64,000 bases of DNA. Origin: Clostridia bacterium. Lineage in GTDB: Bacteria > Bacillota > Peptococcia > DRI-13 > UBA5745. A program made the translations under genes and the position numbers. Below are positions 28,552-63,894 of this stretch, one piece after another. How positions within the stretch are numbered: position 1 is the stretch's first letter; every line of letters begins with the position of its first letter. The DNA lies in NCBI GenBank assembly GCA_018434325.1, contig JAHDPO010000007.1, forward strand, positions 1 to 64,000. The letters run 5' to 3'. Under the pieces are notes generated by a model. It did not search any database. It was not told where the DNA came from and was given only the letters and a program-made list of their open reading frames with translations.

Positions 28552-28623
28552 GCATTGGTATGGATTGTCACTTCATCCTGCGTTGGAAGATTCCTTTTTG
28601 ATGCCTGGTCTTACCACTTTATA

Positions 28624-49951: not shown

Positions 49952-50008
49952 AAAAAATAAAGGCAACGCGCCATCCCGTTACGGGACAACGCCTTGCTTT
50001 TATTTTTC
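49952..50008. terminator. Bidirectional terminator
   Basis: AAAAATAAAGGCAACGCG and CGCCTTGCTTTTATTTTT pair around an inner TCCCGT/ACGGGA. It lies between convergent genes and serves both. The rest of the 282-bp gap holds nothing recognisable. Confidence 0.85.
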
Positions 50009-50086: not shown

Positions 50087-50836
50087 TCAGCTTTCAGCCG
50101 CCGGCAGATTCTCCTCCAGCATCAGCATTTCAATATGCCGCCTCATCTCCTGCTTAGCCTTCTTAGCATCTTTCTTCTTGATAGCCATAAAAATATTGCG
50201 GTGGCTGTCCGTAGCTCTGACCATTTGATTGGGCTGGGCAATCACCGTTTTATTGTACTCCAGCAAGAGATCCCTGGTGGTATCGAGCATCTCCGACAAA
50301 TAAGCATTTTTTGCCGCTGCCGCAATGGCCATATGGAACTCGAAATCCGCGCTCAAGAAGGCTTCTGGGTTATCTTCATAGATTAAGGTGTTGTTGAAGC
50401 TTTCCTCTATGCGCTCCAAATCCTGCTCGTCACGGCGCAAGGCTGCCAGGTCCACAATCTCCATCTCCAGAAATCGCCTGGCTTCGACCAGCTCCGAAAC
50501 GGCAAATTTCATCTGGAGATTTTTTAACTGGAAGAAATCCAGCATCAGCTTATCTTCGCCATTGTTTAAAAAAGTACCTTCGCCAACCCGAATATCCACG
50601 ATTTTTAAAGTGGCCAAGGCTTTCAGGGCTTCCCGCACCGGCGGCCGGCTGACTCCCAGCATATCCGCCAACTCTCTTTCAGAGGGCAAGCGCTCGCCGG
50701 GCAACAGCTTTTCTTCCATAATCATCTGCTTGATTTGTTCAACAATCGTATCAGAAACCGTTGAACGCTTGATTTTTTTAAATTTGTCCTCCACACCTAT
50801 CCCGCCAATCCCATGTTTTTTAGGCATTATACTCAT
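50087..50836 (-). CDS. FadR-type GntR-family regulator
   Basis: A 249-residue regulator: winged HTH GERLPSERELADMLGVSRPP, VREALKALATLKIVDIRVGE, then an all-helical FCD ligand domain (ARRFLEMEIVDLAAL, DFEFHMAIAAAAKN, TDSHRNIFMAIKKKD). The His and Asp residues suggest a metal-bound carboxylate ligand. ATG 50836 is the first ATG but has a poor ribosome site; GTG 50794 is an alternative. It lies just downstream of the SDR-TRAP operon. Confidence 0.87.
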   Translation of the reverse strand: MSIMPKKHGIGGIGVEDKFKKIKRSTVSDTIVEQIKQMIMEEKLLPGERLPSERELADMLGVSRPPVREALKALATLKIVDIRVGEGTFLNNGEDKLMLDFFQLKNLQMKFAVSELVEARRFLEMEIVDLAALRRDEQDLERIEESFNNTLIYEDNPEAFLSADFEFHMAIAAAAKNAYLSEMLDTTRDLLLEYNKTVIAQPNQMVRATDSHRNIFMAIKKKDAKKAKQEMRRHIEMLMLEENLPAAES

Positions 50837-50986
50837 CGGCCTGCGCCTTTGGCGCAGCGGCAATCAAAAATCGCCGGATTAAAACATTATATATTTTAAT
50901 CACAAAATAGCATTACTGTATGATGGTCATGCCAACTTTCCTTTGTGATAATTATAACATAGGATAGGCCTTACTGCCAATACTCT

Positions 50987-51754
50987 TTATCGGCCTGTGT
51001 TTTGGGTGCAGAGTTTGCCGCCGGTTATTTCCATCATCGTACCATTGACATAAGCCGCTTTTCCCGACGCCAAAAAAGCAACGGCATTGGCGATATCCCT
51101 GGGATCAGCCAGACGCCCCAAAGGAATCTGGCCAATCAGCCGCTGGGGCTCATGCTCCAGCATCGGTTTGATGATATCCGTGAGTACCACGCCGGGAATA
51201 TATCCGGCCACCCGTATCCCCAGCGGGTTCAGCTCCGCGGCCATGGTACGGGTCAGGTTGGCGATGGCTGCCTTTGAAGCATTATAAGCGCTATAGCCGA
51301 TGGCCGGAATCAGCCCGCCAAAGGAGCCGGCGTTAAGGATCACCGGCTCTCTATCTCTTTTCATCAATTTCACCGCCTGTTGGGAAGCTAAAAAAATCGA
51401 ATCTAAATTATTGCAGAAAATACGGCGCCACTCCATGAGGTTCATCTCCATGAACCTTTTGTCAATAAGGATTGCCGCATTATTGATCAAAATATCCAAA
51501 ACCCCAAACTCTTGCTCAATAGCGGCAAACATCCTCTCAGCATCCCTTTCTTCCGCCATGCTGCCAAGGGCTTTAAAAACGCCGACAGGGAATGTGCTCT
51601 TTAATTCTTCCTCTGCTTGGGTAAGCGAGATTGGGTCCACATCATTCAGAATAATATTGGCGCCTTCCTCAGCCAAAGACTTGGCAATTTCTTTGCCAAT
51701 ACCCTTGCCTGATCCGGTAATCAGCACTACCTTGCCCTCCAGATTCAGCTTCAC
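50987..51754 (-). CDS. Short-chain dehydrogenase/reductase
   Basis: A 255-residue NAD(P)-dependent SDR: TGSGKGIGKEIA (about residues 12-23), NNAAI, the catalytic Ser in NAGSFGG and YSAYNASK (Tyr-x3-Lys, about 155-162), and VNGTMMEITGG at the end. The last gene of the catabolic operon, possibly oxidising a sugar-acid alcohol. Confidence 0.88.
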   Translation of the reverse strand: MKLNLEGKVVLITGSGKGIGKEIAKSLAEEGANIILNDVDPISLTQAEEELKSTFPVGVFKALGSMAEERDAERMFAAIEQEFGVLDILINNAAILIDKRFMEMNLMEWRRIFCNNLDSIFLASQQAVKLMKRDREPVILNAGSFGGLIPAIGYSAYNASKAAIANLTRTMAAELNPLGIRVAGYIPGVVLTDIIKPMLEHEPQRLIGQIPLGRLADPRDIANAVAFLASGKAAYVNGTMMEITGGKLCTQNTGR

Positions 51755-51768
51755 TATCGCACTCCTCC

Positions 51769-52581
51769 TTACACCATTGTCCAGCCGCCGTCACTCAGCA
51801 AGGATATGCCTGTAGTGAATGAGGAGGCTTTCGACGCCAGATATACCACAGGTCCGATAATCTCATAGGCCTCGGCAAAGCGGCCCTGGGGGATCATCGA
51901 AATCAGTGATTTATACCACTCAGGATCTTTGGCCAGCTGTTCCACCAAAGGCGTTTTATGATGAGCCGGCGAAAGGGCATTTACCCGAACATTATAACGG
52001 GCCCACTCTAAAGCCAGCACCCGGGTAAGCTGTACCACACCGCCTTTGGCGGCGGCATAAGCCGAATTTCTCTCCAAAGCTACGTGAGCATTGATAGAAG
52101 CCAAATTGATGATGCTCCCTTCACCTTTTTCCACCATCAACTGCCCAAAGGCTTTACAGCACATAAAGGTACCGGTCAGATCCACATCCACCACTTTCTT
52201 AAATTCCGCCGCTTCCAGCTCTAATACCGGTTTACGGATGTTCATTCCCGCCGAATTCACCAATACCTGGGGTGCGCCGTAAAGCTCCTTTACTTTATTC
52301 CTTACCGAAAGAACGTTATCCCAGTCGGTTACATCGAGGATAAAGGTTTTACATTCCCGGCCCAAACCTTGAACCTTGCCGCAAACCCGTGCCAAGCCTT
52401 CTTCATTCATATCCATCAATAAAATGTCCGACCCGTAGGCCGCCAGCCCCAGGGCGATGGCCTCCCCTAATCCTGAGGCCCCTCCTGTCACGATGCTAAG
52501 GCAGCCCGCCATACTAAACAAGTCTTGAATATTTTCAGGCATCTTAATTTCTTTAATCTCCTGCAATAAATCATTATCCAT
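51769..52581 (-). CDS. Short-chain dehydrogenase/reductase (gluconate 5-dehydrogenase-like)
   Basis: A 270-residue SDR: TGGASGLGEAIA (about residues 32-43), NSAGMNIRKP, INLASINAH and YAAAKGG (catalytic Tyr/Lys), SDGGWTMV at the end. NSAGMNIRKP is like gluconate 5-dehydrogenases and 2-keto-3-deoxygluconate reductases. Follows the TRAP genes. Confidence 0.87.
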   Translation of the reverse strand: MDNDLLQEIKEIKMPENIQDLFSMAGCLSIVTGGASGLGEAIALGLAAYGSDILLMDMNEEGLARVCGKVQGLGRECKTFILDVTDWDNVLSVRNKVKELYGAPQVLVNSAGMNIRKPVLELEAAEFKKVVDVDLTGTFMCCKAFGQLMVEKGEGSIINLASINAHVALERNSAYAAAKGGVVQLTRVLALEWARYNVRVNALSPAHHKTPLVEQLAKDPEWYKSLISMIPQGRFAEAYEIIGPVVYLASKASSFTTGISLLSDGGWTMV

Positions 52582-52658
52582 ATTTTTATCTGCCCCTTTT
52601 TAACAAGATGAGGGGCCCAAGCCCAGGGGCTGGGGCCCTCGATGAAATGGGAGGGGGA

Positions 52659-53945
52659 TTACTTAAACAATGATAAAAAGCCCACAGAGAGAGCGGGAAT
52701 ATAGGTCACCAATAAAGTGCCGATTAAACCGGCCGCAATAAAAGGTATGGTGCGAATGTAGATTCTGGTGATCGGCTCTTTGGTTACGCCGGAGGCCACA
52801 AACAAAGTAGCGCCGAAGGGCGGCGTAATAAGGCCCAAAGAAAGATTGCAAATGGTAATGATGCCAAAATGCAGCGGCGATATCCCAAAATTAACAGCCA
52901 CCGGTAAAAATAAAGGCACCAGCAATAAGATGATCGTCGAGGTTTCCATAAACATACCGGCTACCAGATAAACCAAATTGACCAAAAGCAAGAAAATCAA
53001 TTTTGAATTCGTCAGGCCGATAATTGCCCGAGAGACAATAACCGGAATATTCTGGGAGGTCATTACCCAGCCAAATAAGGTAGCCGTGGCAATGATAATC
53101 ATTACCGAAGCCGCCGATAAGGCGCACTTACCCAGGCAATTTACTAATACCTTAAAGCTAAGCTCCCGGTAAACCAAGCCGCCCACAAGCAAAGCATATA
53201 TGCAGGCTACTACGGCGGATTCCGTAGGAGTAAAAACACCCGAGTAGATACCGCCCAGTATAATCACCGGCGTCAAAAGCCCCCAGATCGCGTCCTTGAA
53301 GGCCGGCCAAAAGCTGATTTTCTCCGCATTCGCCTCTTTAGGCACCATGTTTTCTTTTATTATCGTATACATAGCGCTGGCAACATAGAGAATGGTAAAC
53401 AGTATGCCGGAAAGCACCACCGCCAGGAACAGATCACCGATTGACACTCCGGTAAGCACACCGTAAATTACCAAAGGAATGCTGGGCGGAATCAAGATTC
53501 CCAGTGTACCGGAGGTTGCTTGCAAGGTAGCGGTATAATCCCCTTTATATCCCCGTTTAACCATTTCCGGATACATAATGCCGCCGATGGCCGCCGTAGT
53601 GGCTAAAGCCGAACCGGATATAGCTCCAAAGAAAGCGCAGGTCACTACGCTGATGATAGCTAAGCTGCCCCGCAGTCCGCCCATCATCGAAGCCGCAAAA
53701 TTAACCAGTCGCTTGGATATGCCTCCCTGCATCATCAGTTCCCCTGCCAGCATAAAAAAGATAATCGCCATCAAAGGAAAGCTATTGGTAGCGGTAAACA
53801 TCCTTTGGATGAATACCATTCTTGGCAAAGTGCCGGTAGCCATTATGGCAAAGAAGGCGGCCAAGCCCATACTGTAAGCAATCGGTACGCCAATAACCAG
53901 CAGAACCACGGCGCTTCCTACCAAAACTAAACCAACTGCTGTCAT
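52659..53945 (-). CDS. dctM: TRAP transporter large permease DctM
   Basis: A 428-residue permease with about 12 membrane segments: GVPIAYSMGLAAFFA, FFMLAGELMMQGGIS, ATSGTLGILIPPSIPLVIYG (20 residues), TPTESAVVACIYALLVG and NLSLGLITPPFGATLFVASG. It overlaps dctQ by four bases. Full length, unlike the fragment at 3.3 kb. Confidence 0.94.
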   Translation of the reverse strand: MTAVGLVLVGSAVVLLVIGVPIAYSMGLAAFFAIMATGTLPRMVFIQRMFTATNSFPLMAIIFFMLAGELMMQGGISKRLVNFAASMMGGLRGSLAIISVVTCAFFGAISGSALATTAAIGGIMYPEMVKRGYKGDYTATLQATSGTLGILIPPSIPLVIYGVLTGVSIGDLFLAVVLSGILFTILYVASAMYTIIKENMVPKEANAEKISFWPAFKDAIWGLLTPVIILGGIYSGVFTPTESAVVACIYALLVGGLVYRELSFKVLVNCLGKCALSAASVMIIIATATLFGWVMTSQNIPVIVSRAIIGLTNSKLIFLLLVNLVYLVAGMFMETSTIILLLVPLFLPVAVNFGISPLHFGIITICNLSLGLITPPFGATLFVASGVTKEPITRIYIRTIPFIAAGLIGTLLVTYIPALSVGFLSLFK

Positions 53946-54427
53946 TCAGCCTCCTCCTTTCCCGGTTTCAATAACTCGCCTAAGCTAAACAGGAAAGCTA
54001 ATGCTCCGCCGATCGGTATGGCAATATATACGTAAAGCATGGGAAGCCTCATGGTTGGAGAAAGCTGGGCCCCATTAAACAGCGCAAATTCCGCTCCTAC
54101 CAGGACCATCAGCAGGGCAAAGCCACAGCTGAGAATTTGGACAATTTTGCCGAGAGCTTTGCCGCCGGCAGGGCTTAATACACTGTATATCGCCTCGACA
54201 GCGGTGTGCAGCCCCCGGGGAATACCCAGGCTGATGCCTAAAAAAATCGTCCAGATATTGAGATAACGCAAGGTCTCTTCAGACCAGGACAGAGAAGCTG
54301 CCAATACATAGCGCCAGAATACCTGCATAGCGCCAATGATCACCATAGCGGCTACCAATACCGTCAATAGGATAAAAACTACTCGGCTTATCCCCTCCAG
54401 TATTTTCTGATATCCCTGATAAATCAT
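53942..54427 (-). CDS. dctQ: TRAP transporter small permease DctQ
   Basis: A 161-residue, four-segment membrane protein: RYVLAASLSWSEETLRYLNI (the conserved W-EE motif) and WTIFLGISLGIPRGLHTAVE. Ribosome site GTAGGAGG. Links DctM to the binding protein. Confidence 0.92.
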   Translation of the reverse strand: MIYQGYQKILEGISRVVFILLTVLVAAMVIIGAMQVFWRYVLAASLSWSEETLRYLNIWTIFLGISLGIPRGLHTAVEAIYSVLSPAGGKALGKIVQILSCGFALLMVLVGAEFALFNGAQLSPTMRLPMLYVYIAIPIGGALAFLFSLGELLKPGKEEAE

Positions 54428-54448
54428 AGCCTTTCCTCCTACGTATCC

Positions 54449-55501
54449 CTATTCCGGCGTTGCCTGGATCTTTCGGATCATTTCGCCAAATTGATCCTCA
54501 TATTGAGCATAAACCACAGACATTGCTTTCATGAAAGGCTCTTTTTCCACCGTATTGACTTCCATACCGGAATCCTTGCATTTCTGCACAAAGTCGGAGG
54601 CTTGCTGCTCCGCTACCTTCCGCTCAAAGGCAGTCGCTTCTGCGGCAGCTTCTGAGATGATCTTTTGATCCTCCGGGCTTAGTTTTTGATAGATCTGATC
54701 ACTCATCAAAAACAGTGCCGGCGCATAAAAATGCTCCGTCAGCGACAAGTATTTCTGGACCTCATATAATCGCTGCAAATAGATGACGGACAGAGGGTTT
54801 TCCTGGGCGTCGATGGTCTTTTGCTGTAAAGCCGTAAACACCTCGCCCCAGGCCATAGCCGTAGCATTGGCGCCGCAAGCGTTAAATGTGGCAATGGGAA
54901 TCGGGTTTTCCATCACGCGAATTTTAATCCCCTGCAAATCTTCAGGCTTAGTGATCGGCCGTTTGCTGTTGGTCACGTTACGGAAACCGTTTTCCCACCA
55001 GCCCAGACCCCGGACGCCTTCTTTAAGCAGCTCGCCGAAGAAGAAGACGCCTAATTCTCCATCCATTACGTTGTAGGCTTGCTGGCGGCTTTTAAACAGA
55101 TATGGCATGTCGAAAACGGCAATATTGGGTACAAAATTGGCTGCCGGCGCACTGGAAATAGCGCAAAGCTCCACGCTGCCCATCTTGAGTCCTTCGATCA
55201 AGTCTGTTTCATTGCCCAACTGGCTGGAATGGAATAACTGGACTTCAATCCGTCCTTCGGTTTTTTCTGCCACGATTTCGCCGAATTTGAGAATAGCTTG
55301 AGAATAGGGATGCTCGACATCAATAACATTACCTGCTTTTAATATGATTTTTTCTGCAGGCTTAGAGGGAGGTGCTGTAGAAGCTGCCTGGCTGCCGCCG
55401 GTTGGGGCAGGCGGTGTGGAAGCAGTACCGCTGGAACCGCAGGCTGCCGCAGATAATAACAGCAGGGCCACCAAAAGGATTGCGCTTACTTTTCGGAACA
55501 T
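54449..55501 (-). CDS. dctP: TRAP solute-binding lipoprotein DctP
   Basis: A 350-residue binding protein. Lipobox LLLLSAAACGSS with Cys about 21, then a short Ser/Pro linker. DctP motifs: AGNVIDVEHPYSQAILKFGE, QLFHSSQLGNETDLIEGLKM and IRVMENPIPIATFNACGANA with the substrate-binding Arg (KIRVMENP), then QENPLSVIYLQRLYEVQKYL. Ligand probably a carboxylic or sugar acid. Confidence 0.93.
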   Translation of the reverse strand: MFRKVSAILLVALLLLSAAACGSSGTASTPPAPTGGSQAASTAPPSKPAEKIILKAGNVIDVEHPYSQAILKFGEIVAEKTEGRIEVQLFHSSQLGNETDLIEGLKMGSVELCAISSAPAANFVPNIAVFDMPYLFKSRQQAYNVMDGELGVFFFGELLKEGVRGLGWWENGFRNVTNSKRPITKPEDLQGIKIRVMENPIPIATFNACGANATAMAWGEVFTALQQKTIDAQENPLSVIYLQRLYEVQKYLSLTEHFYAPALFLMSDQIYQKLSPEDQKIISEAAAEATAFERKVAEQQASDFVQKCKDSGMEVNTVEKEPFMKAMSVVYAQYEDQFGEMIRKIQATPE

Positions 55502-55522
55502 AATAGGCCTCCTCTTTTTAAC

Positions 55523-56497
55523 TTATTTTGACAAAAGCTCCCTGTTAACTACCGATATTGGTTTTTCGCCCATAAGTACTCGTTTGACTTCATTGGCAGC
55601 ACTTTCCTGCAAAGCTCTGTTGCACTCTTCAGAAAAATAAGCTGAATGGGGGGTAATGATTACATTATCAAAGTGAAATAAAGGATGTTCCTGACCGGGG
55701 AATTCGCTGGACAGTACATCCAGGCCTGCCCCGGCTATTTGGCCTTTTGCCAGAGCATCGGCAAGCGCCTTTTCATCGATAACACCGCCGCGAGCCGTAT
55801 TAATCAGGAATGCCCCTTCCTTCATTTGCTCAAACTCTTGATCGCTGAACATTTCTTTTGTTTCACTATTCAACGGCATATGAATGGACAAATAATCGGA
55901 GGCGCCAAGCAGTTGAGCAAAATCAACCCGTTTCACTCCTGCCTGATTAAACACTTCATCATCCACATAAGGATCGCAGGCTATGATCTCTACATCAAAG
56001 GCCTTCATCCGCCTGGCCACCTCTCTGGCAATGCCGCCAAAGCCTGCCAGCCCTAAGGTCTTACCTGTCAGGCAATATACCGGCTTCGCTATATTGAGAT
56101 CCCATTGGCCTGCCTTTACCGCATTGTTAAGGGGCACAATTTTTTTGGCGCTGGCAAGCAGCAGCGTAATGGCATGATTAGCAACATCAACCACTTGGGC
56201 GGTAACCACATTCGTTACATAAATGCCCTTGGCCGTAGCCTTTTCCATATTGATGTTGTTAACGGCAATGCCCACCCGTGCAAATATTTTACAGTTTTTC
56301 GCCTTATCGATGACTTCCTCATTGATATCCGCGTAGCATACGATCATGCCGTCAGCCTTGGAACAGTCTTCCAGGAAGGCGGCCTTGTTTTTTACGTCGG
56401 CAAAGATAATATCACAGTCCAGATCGCTCAAAACATCGTAATAAGGCTGGCGGCTGGGAAAAGGCGAATCCGTTATCACAATCGTATATTTTGCCAA
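55523..56497 (-). CDS. D-2-hydroxyacid dehydrogenase
   Basis: A 324-residue NAD-dependent dehydrogenase. NAD motif GLAGFGGIAREVARRMKAFD (about residues 148-167), catalytic Arg in NTARGGVIDE, Glu in SSEFPGQEHPLF and His in IITPHSAYFS. The start is TTG behind AAAGGATG; no in-frame ATG is available upstream. Probably interconverts a 2-oxoacid and a D-2-hydroxyacid made in this operon. Confidence 0.88.
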   Translation of the reverse strand: MAKYTIVITDSPFPSRQPYYDVLSDLDCDIIFADVKNKAAFLEDCSKADGMIVCYADINEEVIDKAKNCKIFARVGIAVNNINMEKATAKGIYVTNVVTAQVVDVANHAITLLLASAKKIVPLNNAVKAGQWDLNIAKPVYCLTGKTLGLAGFGGIAREVARRMKAFDVEIIACDPYVDDEVFNQAGVKRVDFAQLLGASDYLSIHMPLNSETKEMFSDQEFEQMKEGAFLINTARGGVIDEKALADALAKGQIAGAGLDVLSSEFPGQEHPLFHFDNVIITPHSAYFSEECNRALQESAANEVKRVLMGEKPISVVNRELLSK

Positions 56498-56555
56498 TTT
56501 TCTGCATCCTTTCTCGTATCATACCGAAAAATTTGCATCCCATAAAGGACTCTTT

Positions 56556-56735
56556 TTAACCCCTGGGTTCGCCGTCCAGCCCTACATTTGTGGCCGGCAG
56601 ATCATTAATCAGTATAATGATCCGCTCTTTGGGTACTCCCGTAGTCTCATGAATCTCCTTTGTGATATTTTGAATCAGCTTCTTTTTTTGTTCTACCGTT
56701 TTGCCTTCCGTCCAATCAATTCTCACTACTGGCAT
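56556..56735 (-). CDS. 4-oxalocrotonate tautomerase-like protein
   Basis: A 59-residue tautomerase beginning MPVVRIDWTEGKTVEQKKKL, so Pro1 becomes the N-terminal catalytic base after Met removal. IHETTGVPKERIIILINDLP carries the expected Arg and hydrophobic strand. AGGGGGAAT precedes ATG. It ends three bases before nothing else and sits two bases after the synthase gene, so it is co-translated. It probably ketonises an enol form of a 2-oxoacid. Confidence 0.9.
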   Translation of the reverse strand: MPVVRIDWTEGKTVEQKKKLIQNITKEIHETTGVPKERIIILINDLPATNVGLDGEPRG

Positions 56736-56737
56736 GC

Positions 56738-58027
56738 TTATTCCCCCTTTTCATTTTTTTCTTTGACTTTATGGACAATGGTCAGCAAATCCGCCTCGCT
56801 AAGCAACGCCTTCCTGACCCGGCTCTCCGTCTTTACCTCTTCGAGGATATCCGCCATTTCATCTTTGCTGACGCCGGCGGGATCGATGCCGTTTTTCTCC
56901 AGATAATAAATGATATTGGCCTTGCCGCTGCCCTTGCCAATAGAATACTGCTGGGGAGCTCCTCCCACCAATTCCTGAGTAAAGGGCGACATGCCCGTCT
57001 CCACACCCAGCTTGCGCATACGGTATGCCACATCCGTGACAAGGCCTGATTCCACTTGAGCTAAACATTTACCTACGATGGGTTTATTTCCTGCCAGGGA
57101 TACCTTGCCAATTTCTGACACCAGATTGGAGATTTCACAAAGACGGTCTAAGCCGATGCCGGTCTTGACGCCTAACAAAACCTCTAAAGACATAACGATT
57201 TCTTCGGTAGGCACATTGCCTGTCCGCTCGCCCAGCCCATTAACGGCGGTATGTACACCGGAAGCGCCGCCTTCAATAGCTGCCAAAGCCGCTGCCGTAC
57301 CAAATCCGAATTCATTATGGCCGTGAAATTCCACAGGCGTATCGCCGGTAACTTTTTTCATTTCCTGCAGCGTATATTTGACGGCGGCGGGCAAGGCCAC
57401 CCCGAAGGTATCCGTCAGGGTTACGGAATCCGGCCGGGCTTCCTTGATTACCGTACCATAAATTTTTTGCAAATAAGGAATACTGCAGCGGAAGGCGTCC
57501 CAGCCAAAGAAATTGACATGGAGGCCTTGCTCCTTGGCATAGCTGATGGAGGTGATCAGCCGCTCCAGCAATTTTTCTACACTGAGGTCCAGGGCATACT
57601 GGCACAGATAAGGATTGATGGGATGCTCCACAATAACGGAGCGCAGCCCCAAATCCAGACAAAGGTCAATATCCTCTTTCTTGGAACGGCAAAGAGCCGC
57701 CATGTCAAGTTTTGTACCCATGGCCTGCAAACGTTTAATTGCTTTGCCTATCGTGTCCGATACCACCGGCATGCCGATCTCAATTCTCTTCAGGCCAATC
57801 TCTTCCAAGGCAAGAGCAATGCGGACCCTCTCATCCTCATTCCAGCAGACGCCGGGAGTCTGCTCCCCATCCCTGAGGGTAACATCATAGATCAGCACTT
57901 CGCCGGGATACCGGCCTCGTATGCCGGCTTCATGATTGATTGGCGATACCCAGTAATTCTCGTTAAACCAGGGCTTGCCGTAAAGCTCCATACCCTCCAG
58001 AATCTCCATTTCGGCAACAGTTTTCAT
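56738..58027 (-). CDS. DRE-TIM metallolyase, isopropylmalate/homocitrate synthase-like
   Basis: A 429-residue TIM-barrel enzyme of the Claisen-condensing group. Catalytic Arg/Asp in VTLRDGEQTPGV (about residues 49-60), metal-binding HGHNEFGFG (235-243; usual Asp replaced by Glu) and NGLGERTGN (263-271). It lacks the long regulatory domain of LeuA. The extra 45-residue N-terminus (FNENYWVSPINHEAGIRG) is unusual. ATG 58027 has GAGGAG upstream. The first gene of the operon; the acyl-CoA and 2-oxoacid substrates cannot be told. Confidence 0.85.
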   Translation of the reverse strand: MKTVAEMEILEGMELYGKPWFNENYWVSPINHEAGIRGRYPGEVLIYDVTLRDGEQTPGVCWNEDERVRIALALEEIGLKRIEIGMPVVSDTIGKAIKRLQAMGTKLDMAALCRSKKEDIDLCLDLGLRSVIVEHPINPYLCQYALDLSVEKLLERLITSISYAKEQGLHVNFFGWDAFRCSIPYLQKIYGTVIKEARPDSVTLTDTFGVALPAAVKYTLQEMKKVTGDTPVEFHGHNEFGFGTAAALAAIEGGASGVHTAVNGLGERTGNVPTEEIVMSLEVLLGVKTGIGLDRLCEISNLVSEIGKVSLAGNKPIVGKCLAQVESGLVTDVAYRMRKLGVETGMSPFTQELVGGAPQQYSIGKGSGKANIIYYLEKNGIDPAGVSKDEMADILEEVKTESRVRKALLSEADLLTIVHKVKEKNEKGE

Positions 58028-58081
58028 CAGCACTCTCCTCTCTTTAATTTTTATACAATTCTCTCAATTGATTTCAGCACC

Positions 58082-58124
58082 ATCTTAACACCAGGTTACT
58101 ATGTTGTCAAGTGGTAATACCACT
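58082..58124 (-). promoter_or_regulatory. Promoter and FadR-type operator of the catabolic operon
   Basis: On the minus strand TTGACA (58105-58110) and TAAGAT (58082-58087) are spaced by 17 bp. The palindrome AGTGGTAATACCACT (58110-58124) abuts the -35 and fits the TGGTnnnACCA core of FadR/GntR operators. It probably binds one of the GntR regulators encoded nearby. Confidence 0.75.
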
Positions 58125-58297: not shown

Positions 58298-59059
58298 CTA
58301 TCTGCCTAAACCCTTGATCGGGATCTTGTAATCCGCCAGATTCAGATATATGGCCTTGCAGCCTTCATAATCTCTGCTTTTTAAATGTTCGATGATGTTG
58401 ATGTGGGTATTGCCGGGATTCGTCTCCTCAATACAAACACGGTCAAGCTCCGGATGCTCCTCACGAACCTTTTTCATGCGCAAATCGACAATAGCATATA
58501 AATAAGCCGTTATGGGCTTACGAGCCGCGGTAAAGGCCAGATGAAACAAGGAATTGCCGCAGATCCGGGAAATAGCCGCATGAAATTCGTAATCCTTCTT
58601 TGAATAGCTTTCTAAAACAGCGGCGCTAGGATTCTTTAAATCATAAAAGTAAGTCCTCATCTCCACCAAGATATTCTCCAGCACCTCAAAGTCTTCGTCG
58701 GAACAGTTCTGAATGGCCAGACGCAGACTTTCCAACTCGATACAGCGGCGGAATTCATAGACATCATCCAGCATCCCCGGCTGCATTACCATATCCGATA
58801 CCTCTTCCAGGTATTGACCGAAGTCAAACTCTTTCACGAAGGTACCTTCACCTACTCTTGTGTCGAGTAAGCCCTGGGCGTTAAGCTTTTGCAAAGCCAG
58901 CCGCACCGTCAGCCGGCTGACGCCAAACATGGCGGCCAGCTCCTGCTCTGAAGGCAGTCTGTCGCCTACGGACCATCGCCCCTGCAGAGTCATTTCCTTC
59001 AATGAATTGCTGACCTGATCGGAAAGGTTTAGTTTGACAATTTTTTGTGTTTCTTTCAT
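58298..59059 (-). CDS. FadR-type GntR-family regulator (paralogue A)
   Basis: A 253-residue regulator. HTH: GDRLPSEQELAAMFGVSRLT and VRLALQKLNAQGLLDTRVGE; FCD domain with DDVYEFRRCIELESLRLAI, DYEFHAAISRICGNSLFHLA. ATG 59059 has AGAGGAA upstream. Closely similar to the divergent gene at 59377, so they arose by duplication. It is a good candidate for the operator ahead of the catabolic operon. Confidence 0.9.
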   Translation of the reverse strand: MKETQKIVKLNLSDQVSNSLKEMTLQGRWSVGDRLPSEQELAAMFGVSRLTVRLALQKLNAQGLLDTRVGEGTFVKEFDFGQYLEEVSDMVMQPGMLDDVYEFRRCIELESLRLAIQNCSDEDFEVLENILVEMRTYFYDLKNPSAAVLESYSKKDYEFHAAISRICGNSLFHLAFTAARKPITAYLYAIVDLRMKKVREEHPELDRVCIEETNPGNTHINIIEHLKSRDYEGCKAIYLNLADYKIPIKGLGR

Positions 59060-59123
59060 TAGGCTTATTCCTCTCGCCAAAGCGAATCATGTAAACGCTG
59101 AATTGGCTTACTATATCGCATTG

Positions 59124-59152
59124 ATTATATAAAATATGGAGATGTTTGTCAA
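59124..59152 (-). promoter_or_regulatory. Consensus promoter of GntR paralogue A
   Basis: TTGACA (59147-59152) and TATAAT (59124-59129) on the minus strand, 17-bp spacing: a perfect vegetative promoter. The leader is about 60 bases. Confidence 0.85.
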
Positions 59153-59248
59153 TTTATTCACCAAGTATTTTTCCCAATAATCTAAATATTTAACTTATTA
59201 TATTATATATCGATTTTATTACTTAAATCACACAATTAAAAAAATATA

Positions 59249-59320
59249 TTGACAAGTTTCACGAAATTATTTAGACTAAGAGCTAGCTAGATAGTTAGCG
59301 AACAAGTTATAAGTTTGCTA
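59249..59320 (+). promoter_or_regulatory. Promoter and possible operator of GntR paralogue B
   Basis: TTGACA (59249-59254) and TAGACT (59272-59277) with 17-bp spacing. Downstream are the direct repeats GCTAGATAG and an inverted pair TAGCGAAC / GTTTGCTA (59296-59303, 59313-59320). The rest of the very AT-rich 317-bp divergent gap (59060-59376) has no gene. Confidence 0.65.
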
Positions 59321-59376
59321 GATAGCATAGATAATAGGCTCAGCGCATACTATTCGGAAAGCAGGCGATATATCTT

Positions 59377-60135
59377 ATGAAAAATGACTATAAAATCATC
59401 AAAGAGACGTTAAACAATAAAGTTGAACAGGCTCTGCGCAAAATGCTCCTGGACGGCCGCTGGGGCGATGGCCAGCGGCTCCCTGCCGAAGCGGAATTGG
59501 CAGAATTGTTCAGCGTCAACCGGCTCACTGTACGCCTGGCTGTCCAAAGGCTCAATGCTCAGGGTCTGGTGGATATCCGCGTGGGGGAAGGCATCTTCGC
59601 TAAAAAGTTTTCCCTTTCACAGTATTTGTCGGCAGCCAGCGATCTCTATATTACCCCCGAAATGATGGACGACGTCTGCGATTTTCGCAAAACTCTGGAA
59701 ATCGAATGCGCCCGCATGGCTATTGACCGGGCTACTCCGGAGGATATCCGGGATATGCATAAGAGCTTGGAGCGCTATATAGAGGTTTCAGAAAACTACG
59801 ACTTAAGCACGGAGACGGGGCTGCACAAAAGGGTGGAAGCCGATCTGGATATTCATTACTGCCTCTGCCGGGCCGCCCACAACTCCCTTTATACCCTGGC
59901 CTTTAATTCTGCCAGGGCCGCCATCAGCAACTATCTGAAAATGATCCTTCCCAAGCGTTTAAAAGGCAAAGGACTGCCTTACTATACTTTAGGCGATTAC
60001 ACCAAGGACGGCAAAAAAGAGATGCATCAGCTGCTGATCGATACCATTGCCAACAAGGACTTTGAAACCTGCCGGCGGCTTTATATTGCTATGATCGACT
60101 ATAAGCTTGATCCGGAGAGTGGCATCTATCTATGA
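59377..60135 (+). CDS. FadR-type GntR-family regulator (paralogue B)
   Basis: A 252-residue regulator: GQRLPAEAELAELFSVNRLT, VRLAVQRLNAQGLVDIRVGE and an FCD domain with DDVCDFRKTLEIECARMAI and LDIHYCLCRAAHNSLYTLAF. Diverged copy of the 58298 gene. It lies 66 bases ahead of two dehydratase genes on the same strand, which it probably controls. The ribosome site is weak (GCAGGCG). Confidence 0.9.
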   Translation: MKNDYKIIKETLNNKVEQALRKMLLDGRWGDGQRLPAEAELAELFSVNRLTVRLAVQRLNAQGLVDIRVGEGIFAKKFSLSQYLSAASDLYITPEMMDDVCDFRKTLEIECARMAIDRATPEDIRDMHKSLERYIEVSENYDLSTETGLHKRVEADLDIHYCLCRAAHNSLYTLAFNSARAAISNYLKMILPKRLKGKGLPYYTLGDYTKDGKKEMHQLLIDTIANKDFETCRRLYIAMIDYKLDPESGIYL

Positions 60136-60201
60136 ACCGGCTTTTGTACAGGAGTGCATCGTCACTTTCTGATAACAAAATGAATTAACGGAGGGATGAA
60201 A

Positions 60202-61404
60202 ATGAAAATTACCAGCGTAGACGTCATCAAGGTTCTTACCGGCGAACCCAGCGTGAAAGGCACCCCCTGGAATCCCATTTGTGTGCGCATCAACACCGAC
60301 GAGGGCATCAGCGGTTTCGGCGAAGCGGGGCTTTGCTACGGCAATGTCAATCATGCCGCTTTTGGCTGCTGCGTGGATTTTGCCGAGTTGATCATCGGCA
60401 TGGATCCCATGAATATCGAAGCCATCTGGAATAAGCTGCATCGCATGACCTTCTGGGGCATGGGCGGCGGCGGCGTAGTTTTCGCCGGCATCAGCGCCAT
60501 CGATATCGCTTTGTGGGATATCAAAGGCAAGGCTTTGAACGCCCCTGTTTATCAGCTTCTGGGCGGCAAGACCAATGATAAGCTGCGGGCTTACGCCAGC
60601 CAGATCCAGTTTGACTGGGGCAAGGTCTGCCGCGCTTTGGTCAAGCCGGAAGAATATGGCGAAGCAGCTAAGAAAGCTATGGCTGAAGGCTATACCTGCG
60701 TTAAGGTCGATCCCGTAGGCTTTGACCTGCAAGGCCGCTGGATGGGCTGGAGCAATTACGGCTTATTGGAATACGATCAAATGAAAATAGCCGTTGATCG
60801 GATCGCTGCCATCCGCGAAGCCGGCGGCCCCGAACTGGACATCATCATTGAGCTCCACTCCCTGACCGATACCAACACCGCCGTGCAGCTGGGCCGCGAG
60901 CTGGAACAATTCCGCTGCTTCTACTATGAAGAGCCCACTCAACCCCTTAATGCCGCTTTATTCAAGGAAATCTGCAGCAAGGTGAAAATTCCCATGGCTA
61001 CAGGCGAAAGAAGCTATTCCAGATGGGGCTTCCGCCAATTCTTTGAAGAGCGCACCCTGGGAATCATTCAGCCGGACCTCTGCAACACCGGCGGCATCTC
61101 CGAGGGCAAAAAGATTTGCGACATGGCCCATGTCTACGACGTCGGCGTTCAGATTCACATCTGCGGCGGCCCCATCTCCACCGCTGCCGCTTTGCAAGTT
61201 GAAGCCGTCATTCCCAACTTCGTCATTCATGAGCATCATGAGGCGGCTGTGCTGGACGCCAATATCAACCTGTGCAAATACGATTACCAGCCCGTAAACG
61301 GTTATTTCAGCGTACCGGACCGCCCCGGCATCGGCCAGGAGCTGACGGATGAGACCATTGCCGCCAGTGAAGTCGTCACCGTTAAGCACAACCGTTTTGC
61401 TTGA
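60202..61404 (+). CDS. Enolase-superfamily sugar-acid dehydratase
   Basis: A 400-residue mandelate racemase/muconate lactonising group enzyme. Metal ligands are expected in DIIIELHS, YYEEPTQP and ATGERSYSRW. YTCVKVDP supplies a Lys-x-Asp and HICGGPIS the general acid/base His. The pattern fits galactonate/mannonate-type dehydratases that give 2-keto-3-deoxy acids. ATG 60202 follows GGAGGG by six bases. Followed by a paralogue. Confidence 0.88.
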   Translation: MKITSVDVIKVLTGEPSVKGTPWNPICVRINTDEGISGFGEAGLCYGNVNHAAFGCCVDFAELIIGMDPMNIEAIWNKLHRMTFWGMGGGGVVFAGISAIDIALWDIKGKALNAPVYQLLGGKTNDKLRAYASQIQFDWGKVCRALVKPEEYGEAAKKAMAEGYTCVKVDPVGFDLQGRWMGWSNYGLLEYDQMKIAVDRIAAIREAGGPELDIIIELHSLTDTNTAVQLGRELEQFRCFYYEEPTQPLNAALFKEICSKVKIPMATGERSYSRWGFRQFFEERTLGIIQPDLCNTGGISEGKKICDMAHVYDVGVQIHICGGPISTAAALQVEAVIPNFVIHEHHEAAVLDANINLCKYDYQPVNGYFSVPDRPGIGQELTDETIAASEVVTVKHNRFA

Positions 61405-61417
61405 TAAGGAGAATAGT

Positions 61418-62617
61418 ATGAAAATAACGAAAGTTGACGTATTGCTGGTTACCACCGCTAATCCTATCTGGCGCCCCATCCTCTGCCGCATCCACACCGA
61501 CGAAGGGATTTACGGCGACGGCGAAGCCGCTGTGGCTTACATCAGCTCTCAAACAGCTGCTTTCGGCATGATTCAGGACCTGGCCCGCTTCATCATCGGC
61601 ATGGATCCGCTGCAAAACGAGGTTATTTGGGATAAGCTCTACAAAACTACCTTCTGGGGACAAAACGGCGGTCCCGTCGTCTTTGCCGGCATCAGCGCTC
61701 TGGATATCGCCCTCTGGGATATCAAAGGCAAATTTTTCAACGCCCCCTTGCATGTGCTGCTGGGCGGCAAGCGCCGGGATAAGCTGCGTGCCTATGCCAG
61801 CCAGCTGCAGTTCGGCTGGGAAATGGATTGGCCGGAACCGATTACCGGTATCCCCCAGCGCAGCGCCCAGGATTATGCCAACGTCTGCAAAAAAGCTATG
61901 GCCGAGGGCTACGACGCTGTGAAAATCGACTTCTTTACCTTCGACAAAGTAGGTGAAGGCGCCCAGCAGTTTACCGAAGAGGAACGCACTCGCCTGATCA
62001 AGCCCTATTACCTCAATATGATCGAGGAGCGCCTCGTCGCTATCCGCGAGGCCTGCGGCCCCGATCTGGATATCATCATTGAAAACCACTCCTTCCCCGA
62101 TGCTCAGGGAGCGGTGCAGATCGGTCAGATGGCGGAAAAATACCGCATCATGTATTTTGAGGAGCCCAATACCCCCACCCCTTATATGCAAAAGTATATA
62201 GCGGATAAGGTCAATATCCCCCAGGCCAGCGGCGAGCGCATCTACAGCCGTTGGCAGTATGCCCCCTACTTTGAGAATAAGTCCCTGCAAGTAATCCAGC
62301 CGGACATCGGCAACTGCGGCGGCCTTACCGAGGCCAAAAAAATCTGCGACATGGCTTATACCTATGACGTAGGCGTTCAGGCTCACGTTTGTGCCACTCC
62401 TTTATCCACATCGGTGGCCTTGCATTTGGAAGCCGTCATCCCCAACTTCGTCATTCATGAACATCATGTCAACAATCGCTGCGTATTCAATTATGGACTG
62501 GCTAAGTACAACCCGCAGCCGGAACAAGGCTATATTGCCGTTCCCAACGAGCCGGGTATCGGCAACGAGATTACAGAACAGGCCTACCGTCAGGCCCAGG
62601 TGGTAGTAATCCGCTAA
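61418..62617 (+). CDS. Enolase-superfamily sugar-acid dehydratase (paralogue)
   Basis: A 399-residue enzyme with the same plan: YDAVKIDF, DIIIENHS, YFEEPNTP, ASGERIYSRW and HVCATPLS. It shares GISALDIALWDIKGK and VIPNFVIHEHH with the upstream gene but has an extra insertion around residues 145-160 (WEMDWPEPITGIPQ). Different active-site loops suggest a different sugar acid. ATG 61418 has AAGGAG; 13 bases after the first gene. Confidence 0.88.
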   Translation: MKITKVDVLLVTTANPIWRPILCRIHTDEGIYGDGEAAVAYISSQTAAFGMIQDLARFIIGMDPLQNEVIWDKLYKTTFWGQNGGPVVFAGISALDIALWDIKGKFFNAPLHVLLGGKRRDKLRAYASQLQFGWEMDWPEPITGIPQRSAQDYANVCKKAMAEGYDAVKIDFFTFDKVGEGAQQFTEEERTRLIKPYYLNMIEERLVAIREACGPDLDIIIENHSFPDAQGAVQIGQMAEKYRIMYFEEPNTPTPYMQKYIADKVNIPQASGERIYSRWQYAPYFENKSLQVIQPDIGNCGGLTEAKKICDMAYTYDVGVQAHVCATPLSTSVALHLEAVIPNFVIHEHHVNNRCVFNYGLAKYNPQPEQGYIAVPNEPGIGNEITEQAYRQAQVVVIR

Positions 62618-62697
62618 AAGCTCAGTCCTGTAATGGACATGGGATACAGGCTTAGGCGCCGGCCAATTCCAACAAAACAAAAAGGGGGAAATAATTT

Positions 62698-63894
62698 ATG
62701 AAAAAAACGAAAAAGACCTTATCGGTTATCGCATTACTCCTTTGTATCCTTTTCCTGCTGACAGCCTGCGGCGGCGGCAGCGGCGGCGCACCGGCATCCT
62801 CCGGCGGCAGCGGCAGCGGTGGCAGCGCCGGCAGCGGCGAAAAATCCAATGAAAAGATTGCCGACCTGACGGAATACGCTAAATCCCTGGGCACGCCCCT
62901 GTCTGCGGAAGATGCCGCAATCTGGGCCAAGGTCGAGGAAACTTCCCAAAATCCCGATAAAGTAGTCTGGCGTCATGGCGCCGTTAACCGCTCTCTCGAG
63001 GAATTGCCTACACTGCGGGGCGACCGGCAGTTCATGATCGAAATGAAAAAACGTCTGGGTGACAAGGTAGAATTCCAGATCTTCTTCGGCGGTACTTTGG
63101 GCACCTCCGCCGATCAAATTTTGGGCGGCCTGCAAAACCGCAACTTTGAAAGCTATGCTTACAACGTGGGCGCTTTCGCGGAATACACCAAAGCCTTCAT
63201 GCCCTTGGACGTCATGTTCCTGATCCCCGACCTGGAAGCAGGCATCGCCGTCTGTGCCGGTGAGCCGGGCGAGATTATGCGTCAGAAATGCATTGAGGAT
63301 ACCGGCCTTAATGTGCTGACCATGGGCGCCATCGGCATGCGCCACATCACCAACAGTAAAAAACCTTTAGCTACTGTGGCCGATATGAAGGGTCTGAAAA
63401 TCCGCACCCAAAACAATCCTCTGCATATCATGGCCTTCCAGGCTCTGGGCTGCTCTCCTACCCCTATCGCCTATGCCGAGCTCTTTACCAGCTTGCAGCA
63501 AAAAGTGGTGGACGGCCAGGAAAATCCTATCTCCAATATGTTTGAGCAAAATTTCCGTGAAGTCCAAGGCTACCTGACCTTAAGCAATCACCTCTATACC
63601 GCCGCAGCCTTTGTTGTCAATGACGAATGGCTGAAGGAGCAAACCCCGGAATTCCAGAAAGCCGTAGCTGAAAGCGCAGCTATTGCTCAAGCCTATTCCG
63701 GCCCCGATCTGATCAGCAGTGAAGCCGCCATGCTGGAGTACATGGGTCAAACGATGGAAATCACTTCTCTGGAAGGACCGGCTTTTGAAGAGTTCAAAAA
63801 GATCTCCATGTCCACCTGGGATCAGGCCGCCGAAAGAATCGGCAAGGATTATTTTGAAAAGGTCAAAGCTTCCATCGAGAAAACCATCCAATAG
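62698..63894 (+). CDS. TRAP solute-binding lipoprotein (DctP family)
   Basis: A 398-residue binding protein. Lipobox CILFLLTACGGG (Cys about 25), a long Gly/Ser linker, then an extra segment before the DctP core. Motifs: GDKVEFQIFFGGTLGTSADQ, KGLKIRTQNNPLHIMAFQAL and FTSLQQKVVDGQENPISNMF. AAAAAGGGGG precedes ATG. No DctQ/DctM follows within the last 106 bases, so they may lie beyond the window. Confidence 0.9.
   Translation: MKKTKKTLSVIALLLCILFLLTACGGGSGGAPASSGGSGSGGSAGSGEKSNEKIADLTEYAKSLGTPLSAEDAAIWAKVEETSQNPDKVVWRHGAVNRSLEELPTLRGDRQFMIEMKKRLGDKVEFQIFFGGTLGTSADQILGGLQNRNFESYAYNVGAFAEYTKAFMPLDVMFLIPDLEAGIAVCAGEPGEIMRQKCIEDTGLNVLTMGAIGMRHITNSKKPLATVADMKGLKIRTQNNPLHIMAFQALGCSPTPIAYAELFTSLQQKVVDGQENPISNMFEQNFREVQGYLTLSNHLYTAAAFVVNDEWLKEQTPEFQKAVAESAAIAQAYSGPDLISSEAAMLEYMGQTMEITSLEGPAFEEFKKISMSTWDQAAERIGKDYFEKVKASIEKTIQ

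Follow-up and report, generated by a model that had tools for sequence, protein, structure and literature searches.

Claisen-like DRE-TIM metallolyases, such as LeuA, NifV, homocitrate synthase (HCS), CimA, and methylthioalkylmalate synthase (MAMS), have an HMGL-like barrel with a C-terminal subdomain and carry the motifs RDGEQ, HxH, GxGERxGN, and DTxG. In MAMS, His388 is the general base and is stacked on Tyr399, which is itself held by Glu227. The mutants H388A, H388Q, H388D, H388E, E227A, E227D, and Y399S are inactive, and changes at the three positions cost all or most of the activity (PMC11532901). The DmpG/MhpE 4-hydroxy-2-oxovalerate aldolases have the same DRE-TIM fold and metal site and, like the protein described below, may be associated with tautomerases; they carry a catalytic His after RDG and have an acylating aldehyde dehydrogenase partner. 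The window analyzed in this study is a 64,000-nucleotide stretch of contig JAHDPO010000007.1 from a Clostridia bacterium (assembly GCA_018434325.1). It contains an eight-gene operon, running from 58033 to 50987 on the minus strand, whose first gene encodes a DRE-TIM protein. By fold and motifs, this protein resembles the Claisen-like subgroup; by its base residues, clade, and gene neighborhood, it is, as far as sequence comparison can tell, not a member. We consider it somewhat probable that the operon is a GntR-controlled unit for 2-hydroxy-acid catabolism and that its DRE-TIM enzyme is a catabolic relative of LeuA and NifV that uses another base. Gene content, conservation, operator, and altered active site can all be read in the DNA. 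The genes are listed below in operon order.

56738 to 58033, minus strand: DRE-TIM (HMGL-like) protein, 431 residues, first gene (PF00682, 4e-57; NCBIfam; residue table; trees)
56556 to 56735, minus strand: small 4-oxalocrotonate-tautomerase-family protein, 59 residues, N-terminal Pro retained (PF01361, 3.9e-16; alignment of four orthologues)
55523 to 56497, minus strand: D-isomer-specific 2-hydroxyacid dehydrogenase, 2HADH (PF02826, PF00389)
54449 to 55501, minus strand: solute-binding protein DctP of a tripartite ATP-independent periplasmic (TRAP) transporter (PF03480; nearest solved structures; PMC11668362)
53942 to 54427, minus strand: TRAP small permease DctQ (PF04290)
52659 to 53945, minus strand: TRAP large permease DctM (PF06808)
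51769 to 52581, minus strand: short-chain dehydrogenase/reductase (SDR) 1 (PF13561; 63% identity in locus L031; no orthologue in sibling genome G004)
50987 to 51754, minus strand: SDR2 (PF13561; 64% identity in L031)

The catalytic positions, in MAMS numbering, were mapped on an alignment of 109 sequences. His388 is present in all 61 LeuA/NifV/HCS/CimA-type rows, nearly all of which also have Glu227 and Tyr399. It is absent from 43 sampled rows (the window protein and 42 more), and Glu227 and Tyr399 are absent from these too. In the window protein, Trp178, Val332, and Met348 occupy the positions of Glu227, His388, and Tyr399, respectively, so that the Claisen base triad is missing. Glu136 occurs in 42 of the 43 His388-less rows and in none of the 61 His388 rows, where Phe is usual. 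It lies at the end of barrel strand 4 (model strand 132-138), in an ungapped stretch of the alignment, and is a candidate replacement base. Gln93, GxGER, the metal-binding residues, and the substrate Arg and Thr are kept. The HMGL-like domain has the Arg-Asp...Gln and HxH metal/substrate site, with Arg54, Asp55, Gln58, Thr209, His237, His239, and GER retained, and the metal and substrate residues are invariant over the 43 diverse His388-less rows. The metal, Arg, Gln93, Arg116, Arg182, and GER residues are common to the DRE-TIM protein and the synthases and are partly absent from MhpE. The aldolase His of RDGxH, found in MhpE, is Gln58 here and Gln in all 104 grouped rows.

The DRE-TIM protein scored 308.8 bits with the LeuA subfamily model of NCBIfam, 255.1 bits with NifV, and 70.7 bits with the DmpG-type aldolase model. 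The nearest curated families, LeuA, NifV, and HCS, all remained well below cutoff (the best, 308.8 against 517 bits), and the DmpG-type cutoff of 286 bits was not reached. Because the leucine and homocitrate synthase models are their best matches, His388-less proteins tend to be named after these enzymes. The nearest folds of the structure model are homocitrate, methylthioalkylmalate, and isopropylmalate synthases.

In the maximum-likelihood tree, one change divides the His388 rows from the His388-less rows. After the trait columns had been taken out, along with some odd or near-duplicate rows, the split had a support of 100/98 and was present in all 200 bootstrap trees. The window protein falls among the His388-less rows, outside the LeuA/NifV/HCS/CimA clade and distant from the DmpG/MhpE aldolases. 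Membership in the DmpG-type aldolases was rejected because of the RDGxH residue and the family score, and plain LeuA/NifV membership because of the base residues and the tree. A preliminary description of the window had assigned the protein to the synthase type rather than to the 4-hydroxy-2-oxovalerate aldolases and had suggested a phylogeny as a check; scores, folds, and the tree all agree with that assignment. Its further reading of the chemistry as Claisen-type condensation was not supported, as the GLGERTGN motif is present but the base triad is gone and the protein lies outside the true-synthase clade. When the tree is rooted with MhpE, a long outgroup that leaves the rooting unsettled, the His388-less rows split off before the synthase clade does; the absence of His388 may therefore be ancestral and not a loss. 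If this rooting is true, the biosynthetic synthases would have arisen from within the His388-less class.

Genes within 6 kb were counted at 41 His388-less and 48 His388 loci. Many His388-less proteins sit in hydroxy-acid or sugar-acid operons. Their loci include 2HADH (9), UxaA-type dehydratase (11), LarA (9), acetate/butyrate kinase AckA/Buk (10), phosphotransbutyrylase Ptb (8), IlvD (5), and TRAP DctM (7), whereas LeuB is found in none of the 41 and 19 carry none of the listed genes. By contrast, LeuB occurs at 17 of the 48 His388 loci, where the genes of this list, TRAP DctM among them, are essentially absent: 2HADH, UxaA, LarA, AckA/Buk, and Ptb are found at none, and IlvD and Ldh_2 at one each. 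These counts indicate association, not independent events, because some of the loci are closely related and one pair (L051/L135) is near-identical. At two loci, a succinyl-CoA-synthetase-like pair lies beside 2HADH and the DRE-TIM gene. That acyl-CoA-to-ATP modules recur around the His388-less genes is the main argument for retained CoA chemistry, and the DRE-TIM enzyme is predicted to be metal-dependent and probably CoA-dependent.

It is unlikely that the DRE-TIM protein has remained a Claisen synthase despite its altered active-site residues and joins the 2-oxo acid made by 2HADH to acetyl-CoA, giving a 2-substituted malate. This is the condensing option of the preliminary description. All of its nearest families and folds are condensing enzymes, and the residues from Arg54 to GER named above are retained. 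However, Trp, Val, and Met replace the base triad in an otherwise conserved site, and none of the four His388 substitutions in MAMS, Ala, Gln, Asp, or Glu, left an active enzyme (PMC11532901). In addition, no LeuC/LeuD/LeuB-like genes lie nearby, in line with the lack of LeuB at the 41 His388-less loci.

A metal-dependent aldolase of the DmpG/HpcH kind, which would act after sugar-acid dehydratases and split a 4-hydroxy-2-oxo acid into pyruvate and an aldehyde without CoA, also seems improbable. The operon has no dehydratase and no acylating aldehyde dehydrogenase, CoA-type residues are conserved, and both the Gln in place of the RDGxH His in all rows and the score of 70.7 against 286 bits speak against it. 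On the other side, IlvD and UxaA dehydratases, makers of 2-keto-3-deoxy acids, adjoin many relatives, two enolase-superfamily proteins are encoded nearby in the window, and the His388-less rows branch first under MhpE rooting.

Loss of the known catalytic residues would also fit a non-catalytic scaffold or sensor, but this is very improbable given the invariant metal and substrate residues of 43 diverse rows and the retention of the protein as first gene, at 93% identity, in a sibling species where other genes were replaced.

The gene set recurs in other genomes. Within the same order but in a different genus (genome G018, locus L031), all eight genes occur in identical order with 51-73% identity, and a GntR gene, 46% identical to that of the window, is divergent from the operon. 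In Candidatus Adiutrix (L048), which belongs to a different phylum (Thermodesulfobacteriota), the genes for DRE-TIM, tautomerase, 2HADH, DctQ, DctM, and DctP are consecutive, with 41-63% identity, up to the contig end; DctP has moved to the end of this six-gene set. The sibling species (G004, L030) retains DRE-TIM (93%), tautomerase (98%), and GntR (90%), and between them a dehydrogenase of the Ldh_2 family (PF02615) and another, different TRAP system stand in place of the other genes. Elsewhere in the G004 genome there is no orthologue of 2HADH (best 39%) or SDR1 (best 35%), and a close homologue of Ldh_2 is missing from the window's genome (best 33%). Thus, the gene set that had been described as a unit does recur, at L031 and L048, but its content is not fixed, as the sibling lacks six of the eight genes and has others substituted. 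Because the sibling keeps three genes while the remainder is swapped, the stable core is DRE-TIM, tautomerase, and GntR, supplied by one of two unrelated 2-hydroxyacid dehydrogenases. The shared core and the differing dehydrogenases suggest that different 2-hydroxy acids, perhaps stereoisomers, enter via a common 2-oxo acid. Carriage on mobile elements was also considered: tblastn against plasmids gave only distant LeuA/NifV/CimA-type proteins (<60% identity), and no viral relative was found. Directly after the L031 operon, on the same strand (L031:3390-7223), lie genes for a three-subunit 2-oxoacid:ferredoxin oxidoreductase and a fumarylacetoacetate-hydrolase-family protein, possibly as part of that operon.

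Clues to the substrate come from the transporter. The solved binding proteins nearest DctP are 4PDH, 7BBR, 4P9K, 4PDD, 4NQ8, and 4P47, with <50% identity to any of the first five; 4PDH, 4P9K, 4PDD, and 4NQ8 are among the pantoate- or erythronate-bound structures. In DctP, the segments GFR, IRVMEN, QENP, and GNETD align with the ligand-bound structures and include the typical Arg, Arg, and Asn that hold the carboxylate, plus an acidic residue. Among related structures including 7BBR and 4P47, the ligand is 2-keto-3-deoxy-D-gluconate for 7BBR and either pantoate or erythronate for others, and co-purified ligands may not be the native ones (PMC11668362). Our best guess for the putative substrate of DctP and the operon is a C4-C6 2-hydroxy acid, which agrees with the hydroxy- or sugar-acid substrate proposed earlier. 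DctP orthologues in other contexts were too broad to serve as a clue, the relatives, in 30 of 399 genomes, being only 40-49% identical. In 2HADH, both Pfam domains and the active-site motifs ARGG, SEFPG, and ITPH are present.

The tautomerase has the 59-residue size of the 4-oxalocrotonate tautomerase family, and its score exceeds the TIGR00013 and NF002571 cutoffs. The Pro after Met is invariant across four orthologues. In the classical enzyme, Arg11 and Arg39 are functional residues. Position 11 is Lys here and Arg in three orthologues; position 39 is Ile, and an Arg is found at 37. The reaction of this protein is unsure because Arg39 is absent. No dioxygenase meta-cleavage genes are present, and 4-oxalocrotonate is unlikely to be the substrate.

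Taken together, the operon is probably a GntR-controlled catabolic unit whose substrate is a small 2-hydroxy acid, probably one of the C4-C6 sugar-acid type. The order and direction of the steps are proposed as follows. The TRAP system would import the 2-hydroxy acid, and 2HADH, or the Ldh_2-type enzyme in the sibling species, would oxidize C2 to give the 2-oxo acid. The small tautomerase would interconvert the keto and enol forms of this product. The DRE-TIM enzyme would bind the 2-oxo acid on a divalent metal and, with a base other than His388, for which Glu136 is the candidate, break or make a C-C bond with an acyl-CoA partner; breaking is thought more likely because the operon is catabolic. 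The SDRs may then process carbonyl or hydroxyl intermediates. Several points weigh against this scheme. Another base could rescue Claisen condensation, and none of the His388-less members has a known activity. The operon itself contains neither a CoA ligase nor an acyl-CoA module (at L031, the ferredoxin oxidoreductase adjoins it), and CoA binding is predicted from shared residues. The tautomerase has Arg37 in place of Arg39. The structure model confirms the fold but is weak around Val332, residues 314-362 having a predicted local distance difference test (pLDDT) value below 50, and no geometry was drawn from it because this subdomain is unreliable.

There is a real chance that the DRE-TIM protein belongs to an undescribed enzyme class. 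The broader proposal is put forward tentatively, as possible but rather doubtful: that this class is large, stands apart from the leucine, homocitrate, and citramalate synthases, relies on a glutamate where the synthases have the His-Tyr-Glu base system, and performs acyl-CoA-linked C-C cleavage or formation in several unknown pathways by which anaerobes degrade hydroxy and sugar acids. Should these proteins be catabolic and rely on a different base, many existing annotations would be wrong. A conserved set of 2HADH, LarA, UxaA/IlvD dehydratase, and acetate/butyrate kinase around them would mark unknown anaerobic routes from hydroxy acids to acyl-CoA and ATP. Mutagenesis of the single Val/His and Glu/Phe differences offers a direct test of the question. 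As in the preliminary description, no described pathway with this gene set was found, nor any account of the His388-less class, in the literature searched, which lay mostly outside subscription journals; the main text of the LarA papers does not mention a LeuA-like neighbor.

Operon genes are separated by no more than 77 bases, and no convincing terminator was found between them; the terminator-like matches within 50987-58033 fall inside coding sequence. All eight genes previously described were located, with the minus strand now added, and their treatment as a single co-regulated catabolic unit is supported. The regulatory features are as follows.

58112 to 58122, no strand assigned: FadR/GntR-type operator TGGTAATACCA, touching the -35 box (conserved ahead of the DRE-TIM gene in L030, L031, and L048)
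58082 to 58110, minus strand: promoter-like site TTGACA-17-TAAGAT with extended -10 TG, adjoining the operator (near-identical in L030)
50951 to 50980, minus strand: second promoter-like site, upstream of the GntR gene (consensus match only, 11/12)
50087 to 50863, minus strand: GntR/FCD regulator, possible ninth gene (PF00392 and PF07729; 90% identity in L030, 46% in L031)
49968 to 49992, minus strand: terminator-like hairpin beyond the GntR gene (consensus match only)

The FadR-type palindrome precedes the DRE-TIM gene in the loci of four genomes, which upholds the operator proposed earlier. L030 has one mismatch and a promoter nearly identical to that of the window, L031 has TGGTATAACCA, and L048 has two copies. 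Exact matches to the palindrome number two in the window, against 0.42 expected by chance. The GntR/FCD protein is the probable regulator of the operon. The transcription unit may comprise nine genes, since the GntR gene comes next in the same orientation, is retained alongside the operon, and is succeeded by a terminator-like site; its own promoter-like site runs counter to a simple nine-gene unit. Terminator-like matches totaled 14, close to the mean of 11.8 for shuffled sequence. A G+C-rich hairpin in the DctM-SDR gap (~52610-52640) was rejected as an internal terminator, as it has no T run and is not beyond chance (z -1.23). An Rfam search of the region returned zero RNA elements. The only other exact palindrome in the window, TGGTCTTACCA at 28606-28616, lies between two plus-strand open reading frames.

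The stretch between prmA and dnaJ (window 37203 to contig position ~65964, L028:3964) spans ~29 kb here and ~9 kb in G004, where it carries only the short DRE-TIM operon; it is an insertion hot spot for catabolic modules. A second acid-catabolism cluster, from window position 58298 to 63894 and on to ~3860 of L028, holds two GntR/FCD genes (40% identical), another TRAP system, and a tandem pair of enolase-superfamily genes with 51% mutual identity. The same genome encodes a His388-less DRE-TIM paralogue (L029, G000:C34, 10098-11348) in a different operon, with genes for a cyclase, an Nramp-like transporter, a dihydroorotate-dehydrogenase-like protein, a cupin, alcohol dehydrogenases, and IlvD. 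In Opitutales (L058:7116-11215), a His388-less DRE-TIM gene lies beside an intradiol dioxygenase, a malonyl-CoA decarboxylase, and a TRAP system. At seven other loci (L032, L033, L034, L049, L050, L133, and L134), a recurring operon combines a branched-chain-type ABC transporter, IlvD, a LarA pair, and a His388-less DRE-TIM protein with SAF and UxaA, butyrate-kinase-like and phosphotransbutyrylase-like proteins, and a PucR-type regulator, and looks like an undescribed ATP-yielding acid pathway.

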